A stretch of 64,000 nt of DNA from Pseudobacteriovorax antillogorgiicola (GTDB taxonomy: Bacteria > Bdellovibrionota_B > Oligoflexia > Oligoflexales > Oligoflexaceae): the NCBI RefSeq assembly GCF_900177345.1, contig NZ_FWZT01000021.1, forward strand, positions 1 through 64,000, in the 5' to 3' direction. The position numbers and the translations under genes are program-made. The notes beneath the pieces were generated by a model. That model was not told the DNA's origin, searched no databases, and saw only the letters and a program-made list of their open reading frames with translations. Numbering within the stretch: position 1 is the stretch's first letter; each line of letters starts with the position of its first letter. Of the stretch, positions 22,661 through 33,755 are shown in pieces.

Positions 22661-23584
22661 TTAGGGTTTCACCAGATTTAGTTCCTGATTATGGCAACCT
22701 TGCTCATCTTCACGGGCCATTTCAATCGTGATATGACGAAATCCATAGGGTGACAGGATCTCGCGGATTTTGGTTTTCACGCACCAATAGTCCTCGTTTT
22801 CTTGTGAAACAAGCTCGATGGTGCAGCTGAAGACATGAGTCGAGCCATCTAAGGTCCAAGCATGGTAATCCCTTAGTTTTCTTATTTCAGGAAGCGCTTC
22901 GACTTCATCTTGGATCGCTTTTAGGTCAACGGACTCGGGGACGTATTGCAAGAAAATCTTAATGGTACTCGCCAAACTTCGCAGCACATTCCAAATAATA
23001 TAAGCGCTAATACATGCGGCAAGCAGTGGGTCAAGCCAAGGCCATTTAAAGAAAAAAATCAGAATAGACCCGATTAATACGGCGACCCAACCGAGAAGGT
23101 CTTCAAGTAGGTGAAGGGATAGAACTCGTTCGTTTTGATTACTGCCTTTCGATAATTTCCAAGCTGTGTAGCCATTCACAGCAATGCCAAAGCAAGCTAG
23201 AGCAAACATTCCTTTGAAATCTGGAATCTCGTTTGAATTGTTTAGAATCCGGGGCACCGACTCCCAAAGTATGATGATCGATCCAAGGAGAAGAACAATG
23301 CCAACGATAAATGCAGATACCGCGGACAATCGTCTATAGCCATAGGTTACCCCCTGGGTGGCTTTCTTATCAGCTCGCTTTTCTAGGATTAAAGCCAGAC
23401 CGAGGCTTAGTGAGTCTCCGAAGTCGTGAATTGCATCGGCGACGATAGCCATACTCTGAGTGAGCATACCCCCAATCAATTCCACAATGGCAAAGATCAA
23501 GTTGAGAACAAATGCTAGCCTGATCCGTTTGACGGACTGACCGTCTGTGCCATGATGATGATGATGATGATGGTGATGACTCAT
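22661..23584 (-). CDS. CDF-family metal cation exporter with N-terminal poly-His
   Basis: The product is 307 residues, beginning MS and then nine consecutive His, with the ATG after GAAGGGCCTTC. Six transmembrane segments follow. The metal-site motifs are VADAIHDFGDS in helix 2 and HLLEDLLGW in helix 5, as in zinc/cobalt/cadmium CDF exporters. A cytoplasmic C-terminal domain with ferredoxin-like fold follows (about 210-300), including a DYHAWTLDG segment. It probably exports Zn or a similar divalent ion, with the His run acting as a metal-binding tail. It is divergent from a Fur-family regulator gene, which makes metal-controlled expression likely. Confidence 0.88.
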   Translation of the reverse strand: MSHHHHHHHHHGTDGQSVKRIRLAFVLNLIFAIVELIGGMLTQSMAIVADAIHDFGDSLSLGLALILEKRADKKATQGVTYGYRRLSAVSAFIVGIVLLLGSIIILWESVPRILNNSNEIPDFKGMFALACFGIAVNGYTAWKLSKGSNQNERVLSLHLLEDLLGWVAVLIGSILIFFFKWPWLDPLLAACISAYIIWNVLRSLASTIKIFLQYVPESVDLKAIQDEVEALPEIRKLRDYHAWTLDGSTHVFSCTIELVSQENEDYWCVKTKIREILSPYGFRHITIEMAREDEQGCHNQELNLVKP

Positions 23585-23691: not shown

Positions 23692-23752
23692 TTTGCAGTG
23701 CCTGACATATACTACTGTCGCTGTTTGTACTACTAAGATTGGGTTGCCCTGG

Positions 23753-24214
23753 ATGAAAAAAAAGAAACTTGACTACACTTGGTTTTGGGAACAATTGGAT
23801 GCTTATTTGGAGCGAGCTAATCTTAAACATAGCAAGCAACGCAACTCCATTATAGAATATTTCCTCGATCTAGACGACCACGTCAGTGCCGAGGATCTTC
23901 ATACCTATGCTAAAGACCAAGGCGCGACAGCTGGCATGGCGACTATCTATCGAACACTCAATCTTTTAAAAGACGCGGGTCTTGTCGATCAGAAACAATT
24001 TTCTGATGGTAAAGCTGTTTTTGAGCTGAATCGACCAGACTCTCACCATGATCATTTGATCTGTACTGTCTGCGGCAAGGTTGTTGAATTCGAAAACTCA
24101 CAAATTGAACGACTTCAAGAAGAAGTCGCCAAGAAATACGGCATGCGTCTGACCCATCATTCTCTCGATTTATTTGGTGTTTGCGAGCGTCCTAAATGCA
24201 AAGGTCGCAAGTAA
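23753..24214 (+). CDS. Fur-family metalloregulator
   Basis: The product is 153 residues from the ATG at 23753; the ribosome site is weak. The winged-helix DNA-binding half includes LKHSKQRNSIIEYF and GMATIYRTLNLLKDAG. The C-terminal half has the regulatory metal site SHHDHLICTVCGKVVEF, with the structural CxxC, and a second Cys pair near the end (CERPKC). This is the layout of Fur, Zur and related repressors of iron, zinc or manganese genes. The divergent CDF exporter suggests zinc or another exporter substrate, but repression of an exporter by a Fur protein would be unusual, so the metal is left open. Confidence 0.85.
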   Translation: MKKKKLDYTWFWEQLDAYLERANLKHSKQRNSIIEYFLDLDDHVSAEDLHTYAKDQGATAGMATIYRTLNLLKDAGLVDQKQFSDGKAVFELNRPDSHHDHLICTVCGKVVEFENSQIERLQEEVAKKYGMRLTHHSLDLFGVCERPKCKGRK

Positions 24215-24228
24215 CATTCTCTGTCATG

Positions 24229-24244
24229 GCCCTCGATTGAGGGC
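24229..24244 (+). terminator. Hairpin after Fur-type gene
   Basis: GCCCTC-GATT-GAGGGC is a perfect six-pair stem 14 bases past the stop. No T-run follows, so it is a weak or Rho-assisted terminator candidate. Confidence 0.45.
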
Positions 24245-24463
24245 TGAACGACATCTACTCTGATTAATCCATACGTTGATTATGGATACAAAGCTTATCT
24301 GTGAACGAGGCATGGAGCAGCAAAAGGTGAATGGTTCCACTGCCGATTCACTTCTCTGCCAGAATGCTTTTAGCATCCGTCTGGATTGCTTTCTTGCCCC
24401 TTTGGTTCGCCTTCAGTAGAATGACTCACAGCCTTCATTTAAATCATTGCAGGGAGTCTAGCC

Positions 24464-27175
24464 TTGAACAAGTTCAGCAGGCTGTTTCTGGCCTTGCTTT
24501 TGGGGTCGCCGTTCGCGTTGGCCTCGGAGCATCGCTTTGAGTTCAACTTTACTTTAGAAAGCATCCAAGGGTGGGAGCTTGAACAAAGCATTCGGTACTT
24601 TAGAAATGGTCAAGTTGTAGAAGGAGTTTTTCTCGATCAGCAGGACCTGATGATTGAAGAAAAGGACGACGGCACTCAGGTGACGGGAGCAATTTTCGGC
24701 TCTCCGGGCGTTGTTGGCTTTGATATCAATGGTAATGGTTTGCTCGATTATGAAGAACCACGCACCGTAGGCAAACCTATCGGCTCATATGATGCTTCGA
24801 AAAAAAGTGCAATTCTAGATTTAGGTGTTTTATGTCCCTGTCGCGGTCTTGTTGGTTGTGAACGGAAAGTCGATCTTCATGTGTCTATGGTGGATCGAGA
24901 GACGAAGAATCTGGTGTGGAAGGGTGAAGGGTTTACGATCAAAGTTGATCAGTCCTGTTCCGCTATGGTGATTCTAGGTTCGACGGTAGAACTCCCGCAA
25001 TTTAAATCAGGAAACCGAGATCTCGCCCTTCGTTTAAAAAGCGGAGATATGATCCATGATGTCCCAGTAGTAGGAATCTTAGATGAGCCAGGGCCTCCTG
25101 GACCTCCAGGCCCCCCCGGACCCGAAGGCCCGCGGGGTGAGCAAGGGCCTGCTGGGCCAGCGGGACCGGCGGGTCCAAAAGGTGATCGGGGACCCCGAGG
25201 TTATACGGGCCCACTCGGTGCCCAGGGGCCTCAAGGTATTGAAGGGCCGGTGGGGCCAGCTGGCCCAGCAGGACCAAGGGGACTCACGGGACCACGTGGG
25301 CCACAAGGAACAGATGGCGAGCGTGGACCCCAAGGAGAAATTGGACCCCGAGGTTATCAAGGGGAAGCTGGTGTCCCAGGACCCAGAGGGCCTGTGGGTG
25401 ACACAGGGCTCATTGGGGATCCTGGCCCCATTGGCCCTCAAGGTCTTGAAGGCCCTTCTGGCCCAACAGGTCCCCAGGGCGAGCGTGGACCCGCAGGGCC
25501 CGCCGGACCTGAGGGCCCAATCGGTCCACAAGGTGACGACGGTGAGCTTGGCCCCGCCGGAGATCCTGGCCCTATCGGCCCTCCCGGCCCGGAAGGTCCC
25601 ATTGGTCCCAAGGGTGATTCGGGTGATACCGGCCCTCAGGGCTTGAAAGGAGATACTGGTGATGAAGGCCCTGTGGGCCCTGTAGGGCCCCAAGGTGATC
25701 CTGGTGCCCCGGGACCAAAAGGTGATCGCGGTGAAAAAGGTGATCCTGGTCCGGTCGGACCTCAAGGCCCTCTTGGGGAAACTGGTGATGAGGGAGCTCC
25801 TGGGCCTCAAGGGGTTCAGGGCCCTATAGGCCCCCGTGGTCCTGCTGGGGCTGCTGGTCCCGCCGGCCCGGAAGGGCCCGCTGGTCCTGAAGGTTTACCC
25901 GGCCCTGAAGGTGAGCGAGGGCCGCAAGGTGATCCGGGAATTCAAGGCCCTCCCGGTGTTCAAGGTCCTCAGGGAATTGAAGGCGAACCGGGCTCACAAG
26001 GGCCACGAGGTTTACCAGGTCCGCAGGGTGATCCTGGTGTTCAAGGGGAACAAGGCCCTGCTGGGGTTAAAGGAGATACAGGCCCCATCGGTCCGGCAGG
26101 CCCCATTGGTCCGTCGGGCCCAGAAGGTGATGCTGGTCCTCAGGGCCCCATCGGACCGAAAGGTGATATTGGACCTGCTGGCCCCCAAGGTCTATCCGGT
26201 CCCAAAGGTGAAAAAGGCGATGTTGGTCCCGCTGGGCTGCAAGGCCCAGAAGGTGATCCAGGCCCTCAAGGAGACATTGGACCTTCTGGTCCGAAAGGTG
26301 ATCCGGGACCACAAGGGCCAAAAGGCGACATAGGTGATACTGGGCCACAAGGCTTGACGGGCCCGGAAGGGCCTGAAGGTCCTCAAGGGGAACCAGGAGT
26401 TGATGGCTTACCAGGGCCGGTTGGCCCCCGAGGCCCAACTGGTGATGTCGGGCCTCAAGGCTTGGAAGGCCCCGAGGGTCCCCAGGGTTTGGAGGGTCCT
26501 GCTGGTCCCCAAGGCCCCGTTGGTCCCGCAGGAGAAGCTGGCCCTGAAGGTCCCGAGGGTCCCCGTGGTCCCCGTGGAGAGACCGGTGAGCAGGGACCTG
26601 ATGGAGAACGGGGTTTAACCGGCCCCCGGGGTGAGTCGGGCCCCAAGGGTGATCAAGGTGAGCCAGGCCCTCCCGGTCCGCGAGGTGAACAGGGAGACCC
26701 AGGAATTCAAGGGCCCAAGGGCCCAAGAGGGGAATCCGGTGCGACGGGGCCTGCGGGGAATTTCGCGAGAGACGGGGATCTCAAACCCTGCGATGCAACG
26801 GTAGGATATTTTGTCTGTCAAGATGGTGAGTTACTCAAGATTGGTGAACGCTACTACCAAGCGGTGCCAAGCTTGAATGGTAAGCCGGTAAGCTTGAAAA
26901 TGTTTCAGGGTACAGCCCCCGAGGAGGCCATCAGCGACTTCATCGACTGGCTGCCGGCTATAGGTGTCTATGAGGAAGTTATTGGAATAACGGGTACTTT
27001 TACCGATGGTGCAGGAGTCTCACGACCGATCAACGCGGGGCAGGGGATTGATATCAGGATCCAGGAAGGACAGTTTCAGGTGAAGTCCGAAGGCGCAGGC
27101 TTAGGCTCTGTGATTCATCTAAAAGTTGAGTCCCTGAAGCCCACTGGCACTCCAGTGGTGACCGAGAAGCGTTAG
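24464..27175 (+). CDS. Collagen-like exported protein 1
   Basis: The product is 903 residues. The start is a TTG after AGGGAGTCTAGCC, followed by a signal peptide (about 1-21). An N-terminal domain of about 185 residues has a [12 protein letters not shown] calcium-loop-like motif (about 87-98) and a Cys cluster (CPCRGLVGC). From residue 210 to about 764 the sequence is an unbroken run of about 185 Gly-X-Y triplets rich in GPQ, GPA, GPI and GDP. A C-terminal domain of about 138 residues (LLKIGERYY) follows. The layout implies a secreted trimeric fibre with globular ends. It is a paralogue of the protein at 30.2-33.6 kb. A pup-like operon lies 233 bases downstream. Confidence 0.88.
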
Positions 27176-27192
27176 GCTTATCTCTAAAGTTG

Positions 27193-27215
27193 CTCGGGGG
27201 ATTTTTGCCCCCGAG
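27193..27215 (+). terminator. Strong hairpin after collagen gene 1
   Basis: CTCGGGGG (27193-27200) pairs perfectly with CCCCCGAG (27208-27215) around a seven-base loop containing five T's. It lies 17 bases past the stop. A T-run follows a separate, second hairpin at 27252-27282, so the two may work together. Confidence 0.5.
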
Positions 27216-27251
27216 AACTCGGCTAGACAAACATCACAAAAAAGTCACACA

Positions 27252-27282
27252 GCTCCTTCGATTTCCTTAGGAGTTTTTTTTA
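27252..27282 (+). terminator. Rho-independent terminator
   Basis: CTCCT at 27253 pairs with AGGAG at 27269, followed by eight T's. This is the better terminator of the two behind collagen gene 1 and isolates it from the pup-like operon. Confidence 0.6.
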
Positions 27283-27356
27283 TTAAAACTAACGCTTAGA
27301 GATGTAATGGGTGAAATTAATTACGGATTGTAAAAAAATGCTATTGAAAGCTGACG

Positions 27357-27384
27357 CTCTTACCGATACCTGTATTGGTAAGAG
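27357..27384. promoter_or_regulatory. 28-bp inverted repeat upstream of pup-like operon
   Basis: Arms CTCTTACC and GGTAAGAG match perfectly over 8 bases. Inside them ATA and TAT also pair, leaving a CCTG centre and one mismatch. It lies 24 bases before the ATG of the 49-aa gene, and TTGAAA (27344-27349) eight bases upstream may be a -35 element. Its place suits an operator for a dimeric repressor, or a leader hairpin. Confidence 0.5.
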
Positions 27385-27408
27385 GATCGAATCAAAGGAG
27401 TTGGCGTT

Positions 27409-27558
27409 ATGAAACAAAATGCCCTTAAAGTGGTGGATCTTGAAGTATCAGAGATTGCACGGCAATGGGAAGACATGGAGACAGCGATAGCTGCCGACGC
27501 TCGGATCGCGGCGGAAGCCTATGTGAAGTCTGCCAAGGTCGATTTAGGTGGCGAGTGA
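27409..27558 (+). CDS. Pup-like small modifier ending in Gly-Gly-Glu
   Basis: The product is a 49-residue protein with an ATG after AAAGGAGTTGGCGTT. It is charged, Ala-rich and probably helical over residues 8-42, without Cys or a signal peptide. It ends VDLGGE, and Pup-type modifiers end in GGQ or GGE. A C-terminal Glu is the form that PafA can attach without prior deamidation by Dop. The stop lies inside the next gene's start region (11-base overlap), implying coupled translation with a PafA-family ligase. Mycobacterial Pup is longer (64 residues) and overall similarity is slight, except for an AYVKSAK stretch that recalls AYVQKGGQ. The call therefore rests on the end, the size and the partner gene. 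Confidence 0.75.
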   Translation: MKQNALKVVDLEVSEIARQWEDMETAIAADARIAAEAYVKSAKVDLGGE

Positions 27559-29320
27559 TCAGTCCCACCATCTGTTAGGGCAAGAAACTGAACTTGCCAT
27601 ACGCTTCCAGGAAAGGAACGGAGACCATCCTGGAAACAAAGTCATCTTCGATTACATGGCCCGTGCCATAAAATCCATTGTTAAAACCAAACCTGGTAAG
27701 CGGAACTTCATTCAGGATCAATTCTTTGTCCAGAATGGAGGTGCTGTATATTATGAGCATCATCCACAAAGCCTGCGGCGTGGACTGATTGAATCAGCGA
27801 CCCCTGAGTGTCATTCGGCTCATGAACTGATCCTATATCAAAGAGCCCAAGAGGCATTGTTGATCAAGGCCTTACCCATGGCTCAAAAAATGATGTCTTA
27901 TGATGGCTACGAAGGTGAACTTAGCCTCTTAAAAAATTGCCGGGATTATGAGGGCAATACCTATGGTAGCCAGGAAAACTATGACTCCTTCGTTGCAGAA
28001 GGTTGGCGTTGGTACATGCTCATTGCGTGCCTGCTAGCCTATGTGCCGTTCGCGTTGGTTTTGAAGTTAGTCTATCTCACTCTTCTCGTGCCCTTCGTGA
28101 TGATTATCTTTACTAGTAAGGTTTTTATCGAGTTATTGCTAGCTATCAGTTCCTTAGGGCCGCTGGAAAAGGTGTTAAACCGGATCAAGGCCGGTAGCTC
28201 GTGGCGGACCTTCTTGCAATCGGGTATTCTGCGATTCGATTTTGAGGCCGAGGATACCGAAGAGACTCTTCTAAAAGTGGAGTATTCCCTATTCTATCCA
28301 CTGTTTTGGATTAGCTATAAACCTTTGATTATGCTCTATAATCAATTCGCATTTGGGCCTCAACGTCAGGCTATACATAGCCATGTGATTTCGAGGATTA
28401 TATTTACTGGTGCTGGTTCTTTAATTGAGAATGATCGCTTCATTCTCTCTGAAAAATCTCTAGCCATTAACTGCTTTTTGCGCCGCAGCATCCATAGAAA
28501 CGACAAACCATTGTTTGATTGTGGCAACCTCATAAAAGAGTACGAACTGGCTCTTTGGGAGTTGTTTTTGCTGAGGGTCCATTCGTGGGCGACTCTTTTC
28601 AAACGGGAGCAGCGCTTACAAATCGCTTTTTCAGACTCCAATCGTTGCCATTTCTCCGAATTTTTGAAAGTTGGCAGCACATCGTTGGTTGTTCGGTTGG
28701 CAAATGATGGGTTTCTTAACGATGCCCCAGAATTTTTAGAACCCATCAAAGCGCTTGGGGAGGTCTCTCGCGACATTGATTTGAAGCAGACCTATCCCAT
28801 GAAAGACGGCAGCACTATGAATGCTATCGAAATTCAACAATGGTACTGCCAGCGCGCCAAGGAATATCTTCAGACGGGGCCAGTGAACATAGAGGATCAT
28901 GAGGTGGTTCGGTTGTGGGAACAAACCTTGGCAACCCTTCAACGAGATCCTGCTGCACTACTTGGGCGGGTAGATTGGATTACCAAACAATACCTTTTGA
29001 GCACTTCTGGGGAAGAGCTAGACTACTGGGGACGAAAAAAAATCGACCTCAAATATCACGAATTAGGTGATGGATACTTTGAAATTCTTCAGTCTCGGGG
29101 GCTTACCTTAGATCTTTTTAGCGATGAAGATGTGGAGCGGGCGATTTACGAACCATCGTCATCACGGCGAGCGAAGGTGCGGAGTCGTCTAATCAAGAGC
29201 ATCGCCTTGGAAAACCATCCCATGACTATCTCCTGGAGCCAAGCAAAGATTGGCCGTTGGAATCCCAAAGTCATCTCCCTATCAGACTATCGCAAAACCA
29301 AGGAGATCGAAGAAGCTTAA
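27548..29320 (+). CDS. PafA-like Pup ligase with membrane insertion
   Basis: This 590-residue homologue of the Pup ligase PafA starts at a GTG inside the pup-like gene. Matching blocks in order are GQETEL (11-16), FVQNGGAVYYEHH (60-72), ESATPEC (82-88), GNTYGSQENY (136-145), FTGAGS (286-291), FSDSNRCHFSEFLKVGS (361-377), ALGEVSRDI (402-410), EIQQWYCQRAKEYLQT (428-443), DWITKQ (476-481), DLKYHEL (500-506) and SRRAKVRSR (539-547). Between 152 and about 278 it has an insertion of roughly 125 residues with two strong hydrophobic helices (156-178, 180-202) and a third segment (246-267). Glu70 replaces the catalytic Asp of PafA. No Dop-loop is evident. It likely ligates the 49-aa protein to targets near the membrane. 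Confidence 0.88.
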   Translation: MASDQSHHLLGQETELAIRFQERNGDHPGNKVIFDYMARAIKSIVKTKPGKRNFIQDQFFVQNGGAVYYEHHPQSLRRGLIESATPECHSAHELILYQRAQEALLIKALPMAQKMMSYDGYEGELSLLKNCRDYEGNTYGSQENYDSFVAEGWRWYMLIACLLAYVPFALVLKLVYLTLLVPFVMIIFTSKVFIELLLAISSLGPLEKVLNRIKAGSSWRTFLQSGILRFDFEAEDTEETLLKVEYSLFYPLFWISYKPLIMLYNQFAFGPQRQAIHSHVISRIIFTGAGSLIENDRFILSEKSLAINCFLRRSIHRNDKPLFDCGNLIKEYELALWELFLLRVHSWATLFKREQRLQIAFSDSNRCHFSEFLKVGSTSLVVRLANDGFLNDAPEFLEPIKALGEVSRDIDLKQTYPMKDGSTMNAIEIQQWYCQRAKEYLQTGPVNIEDHEVVRLWEQTLATLQRDPAALLGRVDWITKQYLLSTSGEELDYWGRKKIDLKYHELGDGYFEILQSRGLTLDLFSDEDVERAIYEPSSSRRAKVRSRLIKSIALENHPMTISWSQAKIGRWNPKVISLSDYRKTKEIEEA

Positions 29321-29595: not shown

Positions 29596-30081
29596 ATGGA
29601 TCATCGTAACCGGATTCGCTTCAAAAATCGATATACGTGTGTACTGGAAGATTTAGTCATGTCTTTGGAGCATCATGTATATCATGCTCTGGAGAAAAAT
29701 CATGTTTCTCCATCCGAGCTTTTCTACTCGCTTCCCAACTATGATCGATTTTCTAATCAATTTCCGAAGGCTTGTCACTCCTGTCAGAAACCTTTCCATA
29801 GTCGGGATCATTACTTGAAACATACTGAGCCTGGAGAGAAGCCAATAGAGGATGGTGAGCAAGCGGTTGAATATAGAATCTGTGAATGTGGTAGCCCCAT
29901 AATTCTTGTGGCAGCTTGTCGCCGCGATAACAATCCCTTTGGTATGGAATGCCGGGCCTACTTTGATATCTGTGTCGAGAGGCTAGTTAGCGAGCAAGGT
30001 TTTGTTCGTAAAGAAGCCGAAGATTTGACGAGGATTATTTTTCAGCAAGTCTTTGAAGGAGTGGAGCAAAAGGTTTCATAG
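29596..30081 (+). CDS. Zinc-ribbon protein, unknown function
   Basis: The product is 161 residues without a signal peptide. The middle carries CHSCQKPFHSRDHYLKHT (about 60-77) and ICECG (about 97-101), two Cys pairs typical of a zinc ribbon, with His and Cys spares. The N-terminal 60 residues and C-terminal 50 residues are helical. The start may be the ATG at 29596 (AGGA is 11 bases away) or the ATG at 29659, which has GGAAG closer. It follows the ligase gene by 275 bases and has no terminator-like signal between them that I can see, so cotranscription with the pup-like operon is possible but not shown. Confidence 0.6.
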   Translation: MDHRNRIRFKNRYTCVLEDLVMSLEHHVYHALEKNHVSPSELFYSLPNYDRFSNQFPKACHSCQKPFHSRDHYLKHTEPGEKPIEDGEQAVEYRICECGSPIILVAACRRDNNPFGMECRAYFDICVERLVSEQGFVRKEAEDLTRIIFQQVFEGVEQKVS

Positions 30082-30151: not shown

Positions 30152-33100
30152 TTACATTTCCAAATACTGATAGAAAATGGTTAGAGGTTGATTGAGATAG
30201 TTGATCTCTGTGACCTTGATATGGAACTGCTGATCTGTGAAGCTCAACTCAAGGCCGGAACTTGGCATTGACGGCACAAAAAGGCCAGTGCGGGACATTA
30301 GAGTGCTACGGGCATCCACCACCTCCACATTCGCTGGCAAGATAGGGCCAATGGCAACGGGAAAGCCTAGGCTCACCTGAAGTTTTTCTACTTTCACGAT
30401 TCCCATTTTCAATATTGAAGAACCAATCACGGGGCTTGGTGTGTAGAAGCGCTCACCCAGCTTAAGCACATCCCCCATCAGGCAGATGCCCTCTGTGCTA
30501 GGATTGGCTGTGCATGATTCAACTTCTAAATCACCTGGAGGCCCAGGAATGCCTTGGGCTCCGGTTTCTCCTTTTGGGCCCCGTGGTCCAGTGTCTCCCT
30601 GATCTCCCTTTGGTCCCGCCGGCCCTTCCGGGCCTATTGCGCCTGACTCTCCTTTTGGCCCTCTAAGTCCAATCGGTCCTTCGGGTCCTTGTTCCCCAGG
30701 GTCGCCCTTATCACCTGTTTCGCCTTTTGGCCCCCGAGAGCCTTCCGGCCCGATTGGTCCCGCCGGCCCCGTAGGTCCTTCCAAGCCCTGAGGACCTTCA
30801 GGCCCTATGGGTCCGCGGATGCCTTCCGGGCCAGCAGGCCCTTCCGGCCCTTCTGGTCCAGTGTCTCCTGTTTCTCCTTTGGGTCCTCTTGGTCCTTCTT
30901 CACCAGGGAAGCCTCGCTGCCCTGGGGGGCCCTGGATGCCGGGGTCGCCTTTAGGTCCTCGATCCCCCCGTTCCCCCTGGTCTCCAGGTAGTCCCTGCAA
31001 GCCTTCTGGTCCTTGGGGGCCGGTAGGTCCTTCGGGCCCTCGTGGTCCCACCGGGCCCTGAAGTCCCTCTGGTCCTCTAGCTCCTTCGGGGCCCTCGGGC
31101 CCTTGGGGGCCTTCGGGCCCGATTGGTCCTTCGGGTCCAACGGGTCCTTGAAGACCTTCATCGCCTTGTGGCCCTGCTGGCCCTGCTGGCCCAATTGGCC
31201 CTTGCAATCCGGTATCCCCGGTATTGCCTTTTGGACCAGCAGGGCCAACATCGCCGGGATCGCCTTTTAGTCCCGGTGGTCCTTGCTCTCCTTGCTCTCC
31301 TTGCGGCCCTTCCGGTCCGATGGGGCCTGTTTCACCGGTATCGCCTTTGGGTCCCGGAGGGCCAACATCTCCAGTATCTCCCTTAGGCCCAGGTAAGCCA
31401 TCGGCACCATCAGCTCCCGGATCACCCTTATCGCCTTTTGGTCCGGCAGGCCCTACTTCGCCAGTATCGCCTTTTGGCCCCTGAGGGCCAACATCTCCAG
31501 TATCTCCCTTAGGCCCAGGTAAGCCGTCGGCACCGTCAGCTCCCGGATCACCCTTATCGCCTTTTGGTCCGGCAGGTCCCACATCGCCGGTATCGCCTTT
31601 GGGTCCCGGAGGGCCAACATCTCCAGTATCTCCCTTAGGCCCAGGTAAGCCGTCGGCACCGTCAGCTCCCGGATCACCCTTATCGCCTTTTGGTCCGGCA
31701 GGTCCCACATCGCCGGTATCGCCTTTGGGTCCCGGAGGGCCAACATCTCCAGTATCTCCCTTAGGCCCAGGTAAGCCGTCGGCACCATCAGCTCCCGGAT
31801 CACCTTTATCGCCTTTTGGCCCCTCTGGACCTTCTGGTCCCATTTCTCCAGATTCTCCTTTTAGGCCCCGATCGCCTTTTGGTCCTGGTGGTCCCTGCTC
31901 ACCAGGCTCTCCTTGCAGACCTTGAGGTCCTGGTTCCCCTTTATCTCCTTGAGGTCCCGGAGGTCCAGTTAGCCCAGGTTCACCTTGTGGTCCCTCTGGT
32001 CCAGCGGGCCCAACAGGACCCGTATCGCCTTTGTCCCCTTTTGGTCCTGGTAATCCGTCATCACCATCCGCCCCCGGATCCCCTTTATCTCCCTTTGGTC
32101 CCGCAGGCCCGGCAGGTCCTGTATCTCCTTTGTCCCCTTTTGGTCCTGGTAATCCGTCATCGCCACCGGCCCCCGGATCCCCTTTATCTCCCTTTGGTCC
32201 CGCAGGCCCGGCAGGTCCGGCAGGTCCTGTATCTCCGGTATCTCCTTTAGGTCCCGCGGGCCCGACATCACCGGTATCTCCTTTAGGGCCGGCAGGGCCC
32301 GTATCGCCTTTGTCCCCTTTTGGTCCTGGTAATCCGTCATCACCATCCGCCCCCGGATCCCCCTTATCTCCCTTTGGTCCCGCAGGTCCCGCAGGTCCCG
32401 CAGGCCCGGCAGGTCCTGTATCTCCGCTATCTCCTTTAGGTCCAGGGGGCCCAACAGGGCCTGTATCGCCTTTGTCCCCTTTTGGTCCTGGTAATCCGTC
32501 ATCACCATCCGCCCCCGGATCCCCCTTATCTCCCTTTGGTCCCGCAGGTCCCGCAGGCCCGGCAGGTCCTGTATCTCCGGTATCTCCTTTAGGGCCGGCA
32601 GGGCCCGTATCGCCTTTGTCCCCTTTTGGTCCTGGTAATCCGTCATCACCATCCGCCCCCGGATCCCCTTTATCTCCCTTTGGTCCCGCAGGTCCGGCAG
32701 GTCCTGTATCTCCTGTATCTCCGGTATCTCCTTTAGGTCCCGCGGGCCCGACATCGCCGGTATCTCCTTTAGGGCCGGCAGGGCCCGTATCGCCTTTGTC
32801 CCCTTTGGGTCCGGGTAATCCATCAGTACCGTCAACCCCTGGGTCTCCTTTATTACCTTTTGGACCTTGAGGTCCCTCTGGCCCTACGGGGCCTCTATCA
32901 CCTTTAGGTCCCGGAGGTCCTGGGTCACCCTTTGGTCCCTGCCCACCACCACTGCTACCGGCGAAGGGAGGAATTACGGAAAGGAACTGTGTCACGCCCC
33001 GCCGATTGGATATTCTAATTCCAACTCTTTCCAATGGCATGGAGAATAGCTGTTCGGGTAGGGGATTCGATTCCCCTAAGACGAAGGTGAGCCCGCAATC

Positions 33101-33634
33101 AGGACCCATGTTAAATGTTTTAAGTTCGGGGGTTGTCAAAGCCTCAGCTGTATCAAAGTCGAACAAGCTGATGAGGTAATCATAGGAGTCAGTGCAGGAC
33201 GATGTCCCGAGGCAGGAGCAATTGGTAATAAGATGAAAGTAGGCCTTGCGCTCGGTAGCCAGTAAACGGGTTTCGATGTGACTGGTGATACTGTTACCAC
33301 GGATACGGATGTCGTCAGAATCACGCTTACCATTTTGGTTCAAATCAAAGTCGATAAAAAGCTGTGAAATAGGTTTTTCGGTGAAAGCTATCAGCGTTCC
33401 TCGAATCCAAAGCTGGTTGTCTAGTTCAGTGAATCGCAGTTCACTTTCTTGAATCTCTAAACTCACAGGCCGTATTCCGTCATCACCTCTGATGACCGAT
33501 TCGATTTGAAATCCTTGGGTTTTGGGAATCGAAAAATTGACAGAAAATTTAAACTGAGTGCTTTCAGCTCCTTGTAAGGACCCTGATAGCAAAACGCACA
33601 GAGTCCAAACAAGGCTCGTGATACGAGACAGCAT
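30152..33634 (-). CDS. Collagen-like exported protein 2
   Basis: The ATG at 33634 follows AGGGAGGATCATCCC and begins the signal peptide, giving about 1160 residues; an upstream ATG in frame at 33685 is less likely. A N-terminal domain (about 215 residues) resembles that of collagen-like protein 1, with a calcium-loop-like [12 protein letters not shown] and Cys pairs. About 267 uninterrupted Gly-X-Y triplets follow, rich in [12 protein letters not shown] and GLPGPK. A C-terminal domain of about 126 residues contains LKLGERFY, matching LKIGERYY in the paralogue. High Asp/Lys content of the triplets favours interchain salt bridges. The two proteins could form related surface or secreted fibres. 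Confidence 0.88.
31325..31830 (-). repeat. 126-bp tandem repeats in collagen gene 2
   Basis: About four near-identical copies of a 126-bp unit (42 residues, 14 triplets, containing [12 protein letters not shown] and [12 protein letters not shown]) lie at regular 126-base spacing. The landmark CCCGGAGGGCC recurs at about 31353, 31605 and 31731, with a variant at 31479. The DNA identity is much higher than protein constraint alone needs, so recent unequal exchange is likely. Confidence 0.85.
31990..32840 (-). repeat. Variable-length tandem repeats in collagen gene 2
   Basis: At least five copies of a near-identical block encoding [17 protein letters not shown] recur at about 32030, 32133, 32310, 32473 and 32617, separated by variable numbers of GPA triplets. 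Spacing differs between copies, so copy number and length are likely to vary between strains. Confidence 0.8.
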
Positions 33635-33755
33635 GGGATGATCCTCCCTCTTCTTTTGTGGAAATCTATGCTGAGAATTATTCATCCATAAAGCTAAAAA
33701 TCCAATGAAAAACTGATAAACTTAACACGGACTGATTAAAGAGGAGTGATTGATA

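Follow-up and report, generated by a model that had tools for sequence, protein, structure and literature searches.

A putative two-gene Pup-like conjugation module, with a Glu-terminated modifier and a predicted membrane-anchored PafA/Dop-family enzyme, in Pseudobacteriovorax antillogorgiicola

Introduction

Can a Pup-like tag be attached to proteins, and perhaps taken off again, in a bacterium whose draft genome yields one enzyme of the PafA/Dop family, no separate Dop and no proteasome? This question is raised by two overlapping genes in a 64,000-nucleotide stretch of the genome of Pseudobacteriovorax antillogorgiicola (contig NZ_FWZT01000021.1, positions 1 to 64,000; hereafter the window). 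Studies of pupylation have dealt almost entirely with actinobacteria, whose tag is coupled to the proteasome and to Dop, and a two-gene system without either would offer a direct test of Pup tagging in the absence of degradation. The pair would also test whether one enzyme can hold both activities, and would bear on the nature of the ancestor of PafA and Dop. With its 49 residues the modifier would be very small, and together with ligation by one enzyme it might find use in proximity labelling at membranes.

Results and discussion

A conserved small protein ending in Gly-Gly-Glu

27394..27400, + strand: Shine-Dalgarno-like AAAGGAG, 8 nt 5′ of the modifier ATG (read in the sequence)
27409..27558, + strand: Pup-like modifier, 49 aa, ending Gly-Gly-Glu (ORF; conservation, selection and co-occurrence)
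27548..29320, + strand: single PafA/Dop-family enzyme, 590 aa, predicted membrane-anchored Pup ligase (PF03136, E 8e-70)

The modifier ORF opens with an ATG at 27409 and closes with the TGA that ends at 27558, and its product, MKQNALKVVDLEVSEIARQWEDMETAIAADARIAAEAYVKSAKVDLGGE, has the C-terminus VDLGGE immediately before the stop. The claim of an earlier note on this DNA, that the modifier is encoded directly with a C-terminal Glu, thus holds, and so does its corollary that no deamidase is necessary, since the tag is already Glu-terminated as translated. The GTG start of the enzyme (27548) sits within the last codons of the modifier ORF.

Two further genomes carry the same pair. In a second Pseudobacteriovorax (L002/L004) the peptide has 49 aa and the enzyme is 62% identical; in L003, which belongs to a different family within the order, the peptide has 53 aa and the enzyme is 41% identical. 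The two frames are adjacent, either overlapping or abutting, in all three genomes. A profile built from the three peptides gave strong matches (E < 1e-24) in just 3 of 58 genomes of the phylum; the enzyme occurs in the same three, and neither gene is found in the other 55. Our scan of genome contigs for relatives returned a single match, the Pseudobacteriovorax MAG. No relative was found in the viral contigs searched. All matches in the plasmid and phage collections were actinobacterial-type PafA/Dop records, which were taken as comparison sequences.

When the modifiers of the two Pseudobacteriovorax were compared, synonymous divergence (pS 0.80) was well above nonsynonymous divergence (pN 0.345), and their tails were almost the same (YVKxAKVDLGGE). 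The modifier is under purifying selection at the protein level and is no mere chance ORF. The distant L003 peptide is 27% identical overall and retains the GGE tail with other codons (GGG GGT GAG), so that this tail is invariant in 3 of 3 modifier peptides.

One could instead regard the small ORF as a leader peptide, translationally coupled to the enzyme gene and regulating it, with the enzyme making small gamma-glutamyl compounds or acting on other substrates. The overlap of the enzyme start with the ORF would fit, as would the failure of Pup models to match its product and the conservation of the last codons in DNA between the two close species. That conservation is partial and is expected there because the enzyme start overlaps the tail. 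The protein-level constraint, however, runs along the ORF, with pN well under pS; L003 keeps GGE by other codons and has no overlapping ATG, GTG or TTG start for the enzyme; and GGE is the exact tail used by the enzyme family. We therefore consider a leader peptide unlikely. In L003 (970-1030) the enzyme frame contains no ATG, GTG or TTG from the preceding stop to the catalytic GLETE motif, which implies either a rare start codon such as ATT or an error in the draft sequence.

By sequence, the modifier is not an ordinary Pup, and we rejected that assignment: the Pup models, including PF05639, did not match it in the Pfam scan or in the genome search at the locus, its alignment scores against two actinobacterial Pups were not above those of shuffled sequences, and hhalign against Pup returned a probability of 0.4%. 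UBact was also considered, and was covered by the full Pfam and NCBIfam scans. In all three genomes, a small protein ending in G[EQ] adjoins a PafA-family gene, as expected of a Pup modifier, and judged by position, size, tail and co-occurrence the peptide is a Pup in role.

An enzyme outside PafA and Dop

27578..27592, + strand: GhExE-type ATP/Mg motif, G11-Q-E-T-E15 of the enzyme (PafA/Dop alignment; motif defined in PMC2588565)
27755..27757, + strand: Glu70, at the catalytic Asp position (PafA Asp57, Dop Asp94/95; alignment)
28466..28471, + strand: site of the missing PafA/Dop alpha-loop, seven residues fewer (alignment)

Membership of the superfamily is clear, the enzyme scoring 236 bits against the Pup_ligase model PF03136 (cut-off 25) and matching PafA and Dop structures in a sequence search. 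Its 171 bits against the PafA equivalog TIGR03686 and 148 bits against the Dop model TIGR03688 fall far below the respective cut-offs of 551 and 492. We aligned the three lineage enzymes with the PafA and Dop sequences of Nonomuraea and MT835496; they are equidistant from the two families (24-31% identity to both) and, in the resulting unrooted seven-sequence tree, which has a long branch, they lie outside both PafA (support 98) and Dop (support 100). On this sequence comparison, the enzyme belongs to a third branch, placed as the sister group of PafA and Dop together, and is not an orthologous PafA.

The catalytic motifs of the family are kept, namely GxExE, the QxN in SQEN, the QxxxxD in QIAFSD and the arginines; the superfamily motifs shared by the lineage enzymes were listed by Iyer et al. 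2008 (PMC2588565). The catalytic Asp of PafA and Dop is replaced by Glu in 3 of 3 lineage enzymes, with several extra residues behind it. Both diagnostic loops are missing. The helix of the PafA alpha-loop (HxWEGxSSA) is absent, and in the region of the Dop-loop, which spans about 40 residues, the alignment leaves about 11 (TKPGKRNFIQD), in agreement with the earlier note, which had remarked that the ligase lacks an evident Dop-loop. An AlphaFold model made from a two-sequence input had a mean pLDDT of 38 and was discarded.

Most of the published positions that discriminate PafA from Dop lie in the loops deleted from this enzyme, and those that remain point both ways. The enzyme could be read as a Dop-like hydrolase rather than a ligase, given that it is no nearer to PafA than to Dop and that two positions of the published table are Dop-like: position 46 is Ser, and position 10, the PafA-specific insertion, is empty. 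Yet positions 7, 13 (in 2 of 3 enzymes) and 14 resemble PafA and there is no Dop-loop, a deamidase would be superfluous for a modifier that already ends in Glu, and, as the sole family member in the genome, a hydrolase would leave a tag that is useless without a ligase. We regard a hydrolase as very unlikely, and family chemistry suggests that the enzyme acts as a ligase.

A predicted transmembrane insertion in the catalytic domain

28004..28165, + strand: hydrophobic stretch, enzyme residues 153-206, with at least two transmembrane segments, after the core-strand-4 motif SQENY (hydropathy, alignment)
28283..28339, + strand: further membrane-seeking segment of the insertion, enzyme residues 246-264 (Wimley-White octanol scale)

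Hydropathy and alignment place an insertion in all three lineage enzymes that does not occur in soluble PafA or Dop. Two strongly hydrophobic segments are predicted in it, with as many as two weaker ones; the segment at residues 246-264 peaks above 11 on the Wimley-White octanol scale in all three relatives. With an even number of segments, the two halves of the catalytic domain would both stay cytoplasmic. With a transmembrane insertion after core strand 4, an adjacent Pup and no linked proteasome, the locus has the features of the membrane-anchored type of Iyer et al. 2008.

No Dop, proteasome or Mpa/ARC found in the pair-bearing genomes

The earlier note saw no Dop-like gene near the modifier, and this extends to the whole genome. 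PF03136, whose profile covers both PafA and Dop, gave one match in the host even at E ≤ 10, leaving no second gene that could be Dop. The two pair-bearing relatives likewise have exactly one PF03136 gene each at E ≤ 10 and no Dop, and so the finding that the note had named as fatal to its reading, a Dop gene elsewhere in the genome, was not made in any of the three. As a positive control, the same search recovered both PafA and Dop in MT835496.

The three genomes are drafts of 94-97% completeness (97% for the Pseudobacteriovorax-like host), which leaves some room for a Dop in the unassembled few percent. Such a gene would, however, have to be missing independently from three assemblies, and Dop lies close to Pup in the Nonomuraea and MT835496 loci; this explanation is hardly credible.

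No proteasome-fold protein (PF00227), not even HslV, was found in the pair-bearing genomes, in a search that matched 10 of 14 control genomes. No ARC/Mpa scored above the cut-off either; the best AAA matches were far under it, that in the host genome being FtsH. The 20S proteasome and the Mpa/ARC ATPase that define a Pup-proteasome system are thus lacking among these matches. The membrane insertion and the missing proteasome are more informative about this locus than the points raised in the earlier note.

That note had also counted the Glu ending among its reasons for a system that may be ligase-only, and here we disagree. In Corynebacterium glutamicum, Pup ends in Glu and Dop is kept, which has been explained by its depupylase role (PMC3511204), and in Nonomuraea a Pup ending in GGE has Dop nearby. 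Because both combine Pup-Glu with Dop, the Glu ending and the absence of Dop are compatible but independent in the present genome. As to the suggestion that the system is ligase-only, the part that concerns Dop stands, as none was found; the rest presupposes a PafA, while the enzyme falls in a third branch without either diagnostic loop, so that its activity is presumed rather than read from orthology.

A proposed minimal conjugation module, and how the tag might be removed

We propose that the two genes probably form a minimal Pup-like conjugation module that is held at the membrane, is non-proteasomal and possibly relies on the same enzyme for removal. Translation would yield a short modifier that is Glu-terminated from the start. 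The enzyme, with its GS fold, would be anchored at the inner face of the cytoplasmic membrane through the transmembrane insertion, where, following the chemistry of its family, it may phosphorylate the gamma-carboxylate of the modifier Glu with ATP and join the modifier to lysines of nearby proteins, probably membrane or membrane-associated ones. As the genome search yielded no proteasome, the tag would not be routed to one. Without proteasome and Mpa it is therefore probably regulatory, most likely a regulatory mark, or may at most serve for handover to another protease such as FtsH.

In favour of this module are the adjacency of the genes in three genomes, their perfect co-occurrence over 58 genomes of the phylum, the selection on the modifier and its invariant GGE, the kept catalytic motifs, the insertion in all three enzymes, and the single PF03136 gene per genome with no PF00227 and no ARC/Mpa above the cut-off; Iyer et al. 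2008 predicted the same for Plesiocystis and Rhodopirellula (PMC2588565). Against it, the modifier has no significant similarity to known Pup; PafA needs its catalytic Asp, D57N being inactive (PMC5358908), and the residue here is Glu; the alpha-loop, missing here, is important for target binding by PafA according to a 2020 Dop/PafA study; and the genomes are drafts, 94-97% complete.

The absence of Dop need not exclude removal of the tag, because PafA of Mycobacterium tuberculosis itself removes Pup with ADP, faster than Dop did in that assay (PMC5358908). Removal in the module, if any, would likeliest be by the same enzyme, through hydrolysis or through reversal with ADP as in M. tuberculosis PafA. 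A stronger form holds that the lineage split off before the PafA/Dop duplication and that one bifunctional enzyme routinely carries out both attachment and removal of the modifier. The third branch at 24-31% identity to both families, the lack of the Dop-loop and of the PafA alpha-loop, which set the two activities apart, the depupylation that PafA already performs (PMC5358908) and the promiscuous ancestor argued for in the 2020 study, whose tree is rooted on single-copy Planctomycetes proteins, would all agree with it. The case is nevertheless one of sequence position, taken from our small unrooted tree with its long branch, and PafA showed depupylation chiefly in the presence of ADP; we hold this reading as a tentative possibility. 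It is more doubtful still that the pair represents, all at once, a third Pup-enzyme lineage predating the duplication, with Glu in place of Asp, held at the membrane, tagging and untagging, and forming a reversible, non-degradative membrane signal of ancestral-like character.

Comparison with known systems

An arrangement of this kind was already on record. For Plesiocystis pacifica and Rhodopirellula baltica, Iyer, Burroughs and Aravind 2008 reported Pup ligases that carry transmembrane insertions and are not linked to a proteasome, suggested that membrane proteins are modified, and pointed out that the last residue of Pup may be either Glu or Gln (PMC2588565). Compared with that published description, our pair shares the adjacent Pup and ligase, the insertion directly after core strand 4, the lack of linkage to a proteasome, the G[EQ] ending and the predicted membrane-protein targets. 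It differs in having two to four predicted transmembrane segments where four were reported, in lacking a conserved neighbour comparable to their membrane-protein gene, and in phylum; the host thus adds a member from a different phylum. What we add is the occurrence of the type in the Pseudobacteriovorax lineage, together with tests for missing genes, for co-occurrence and for selection. We found no experimental work on the membrane-anchored, proteasome-unlinked type in the open-access literature.

The single-copy PafA/Dop relatives of some Planctomycetes, used as the tree root in the 2020 study, are also comparable in being encoded by one gene, in having partial sequence in the Dop-loop region and in branching outside PafA plus Dop; they are 29-31% identical to PafA and Dop, against 24-31% here. 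In the accessible part of that study they serve as an outgroup only, with no membrane insertion or modifier reported. With the actinobacterial PafA-Pup systems of Corynebacterium and Mycobacterium, the pair shares the GS fold, the active-site motifs, a small GGE modifier (acceptor-ready or deamidated) and genes that are adjacent or nearby. Unlike our enzyme, actinobacterial PafA is soluble and has the catalytic Asp and the alpha-loop helix, and its system includes Dop and Mpa/ARC, mostly a 20S proteasome, and a longer Pup that matches PF05639. Fold, motifs and sequence distance likewise bring our enzyme near Dop, from which it is set apart by the lack of a Dop-loop, by a modifier that requires no deamidation and by Glu in place of the catalytic Asp.

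Genomic neighbourhood and other observations

Both Pseudobacteriovorax share the order fur-type regulator, large collagen-like secreted protein, modifier and enzyme (23693-27558 in the window; 1388-5011 in L004), whereas the fur-type and collagen-like genes are not so arranged in L003. Two very large collagen-like proteins with Gly-X-Y repeats, matching models of bacterial collagen-like adhesins, flank the pair (24464-27175, + strand; 30152-33685, − strand). Farther upstream (22661-23584, − strand) lies a cation-diffusion-facilitator-like transporter whose native N-terminus is MSHHHHHHHHHGTDG, with a run of nine histidines. Downstream, at 29596-30081 (+ strand), a 161-aa protein carries Cys/His motifs (CHSCQKPFHSRDHYLKH), its zinc-finger matches being weak and below the cut-off; we rejected this gene as part of the system, as it does not adjoin the pair in the relatives. 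Among the comparison sequences, MT835496.1 (L028), from human stool, is labelled "Bacteriophage sp." and carries a full set of Dop, Pup (ending in GGQ) and PafA; because of this set, it is probably an actinobacterial chromosome and not a phage.
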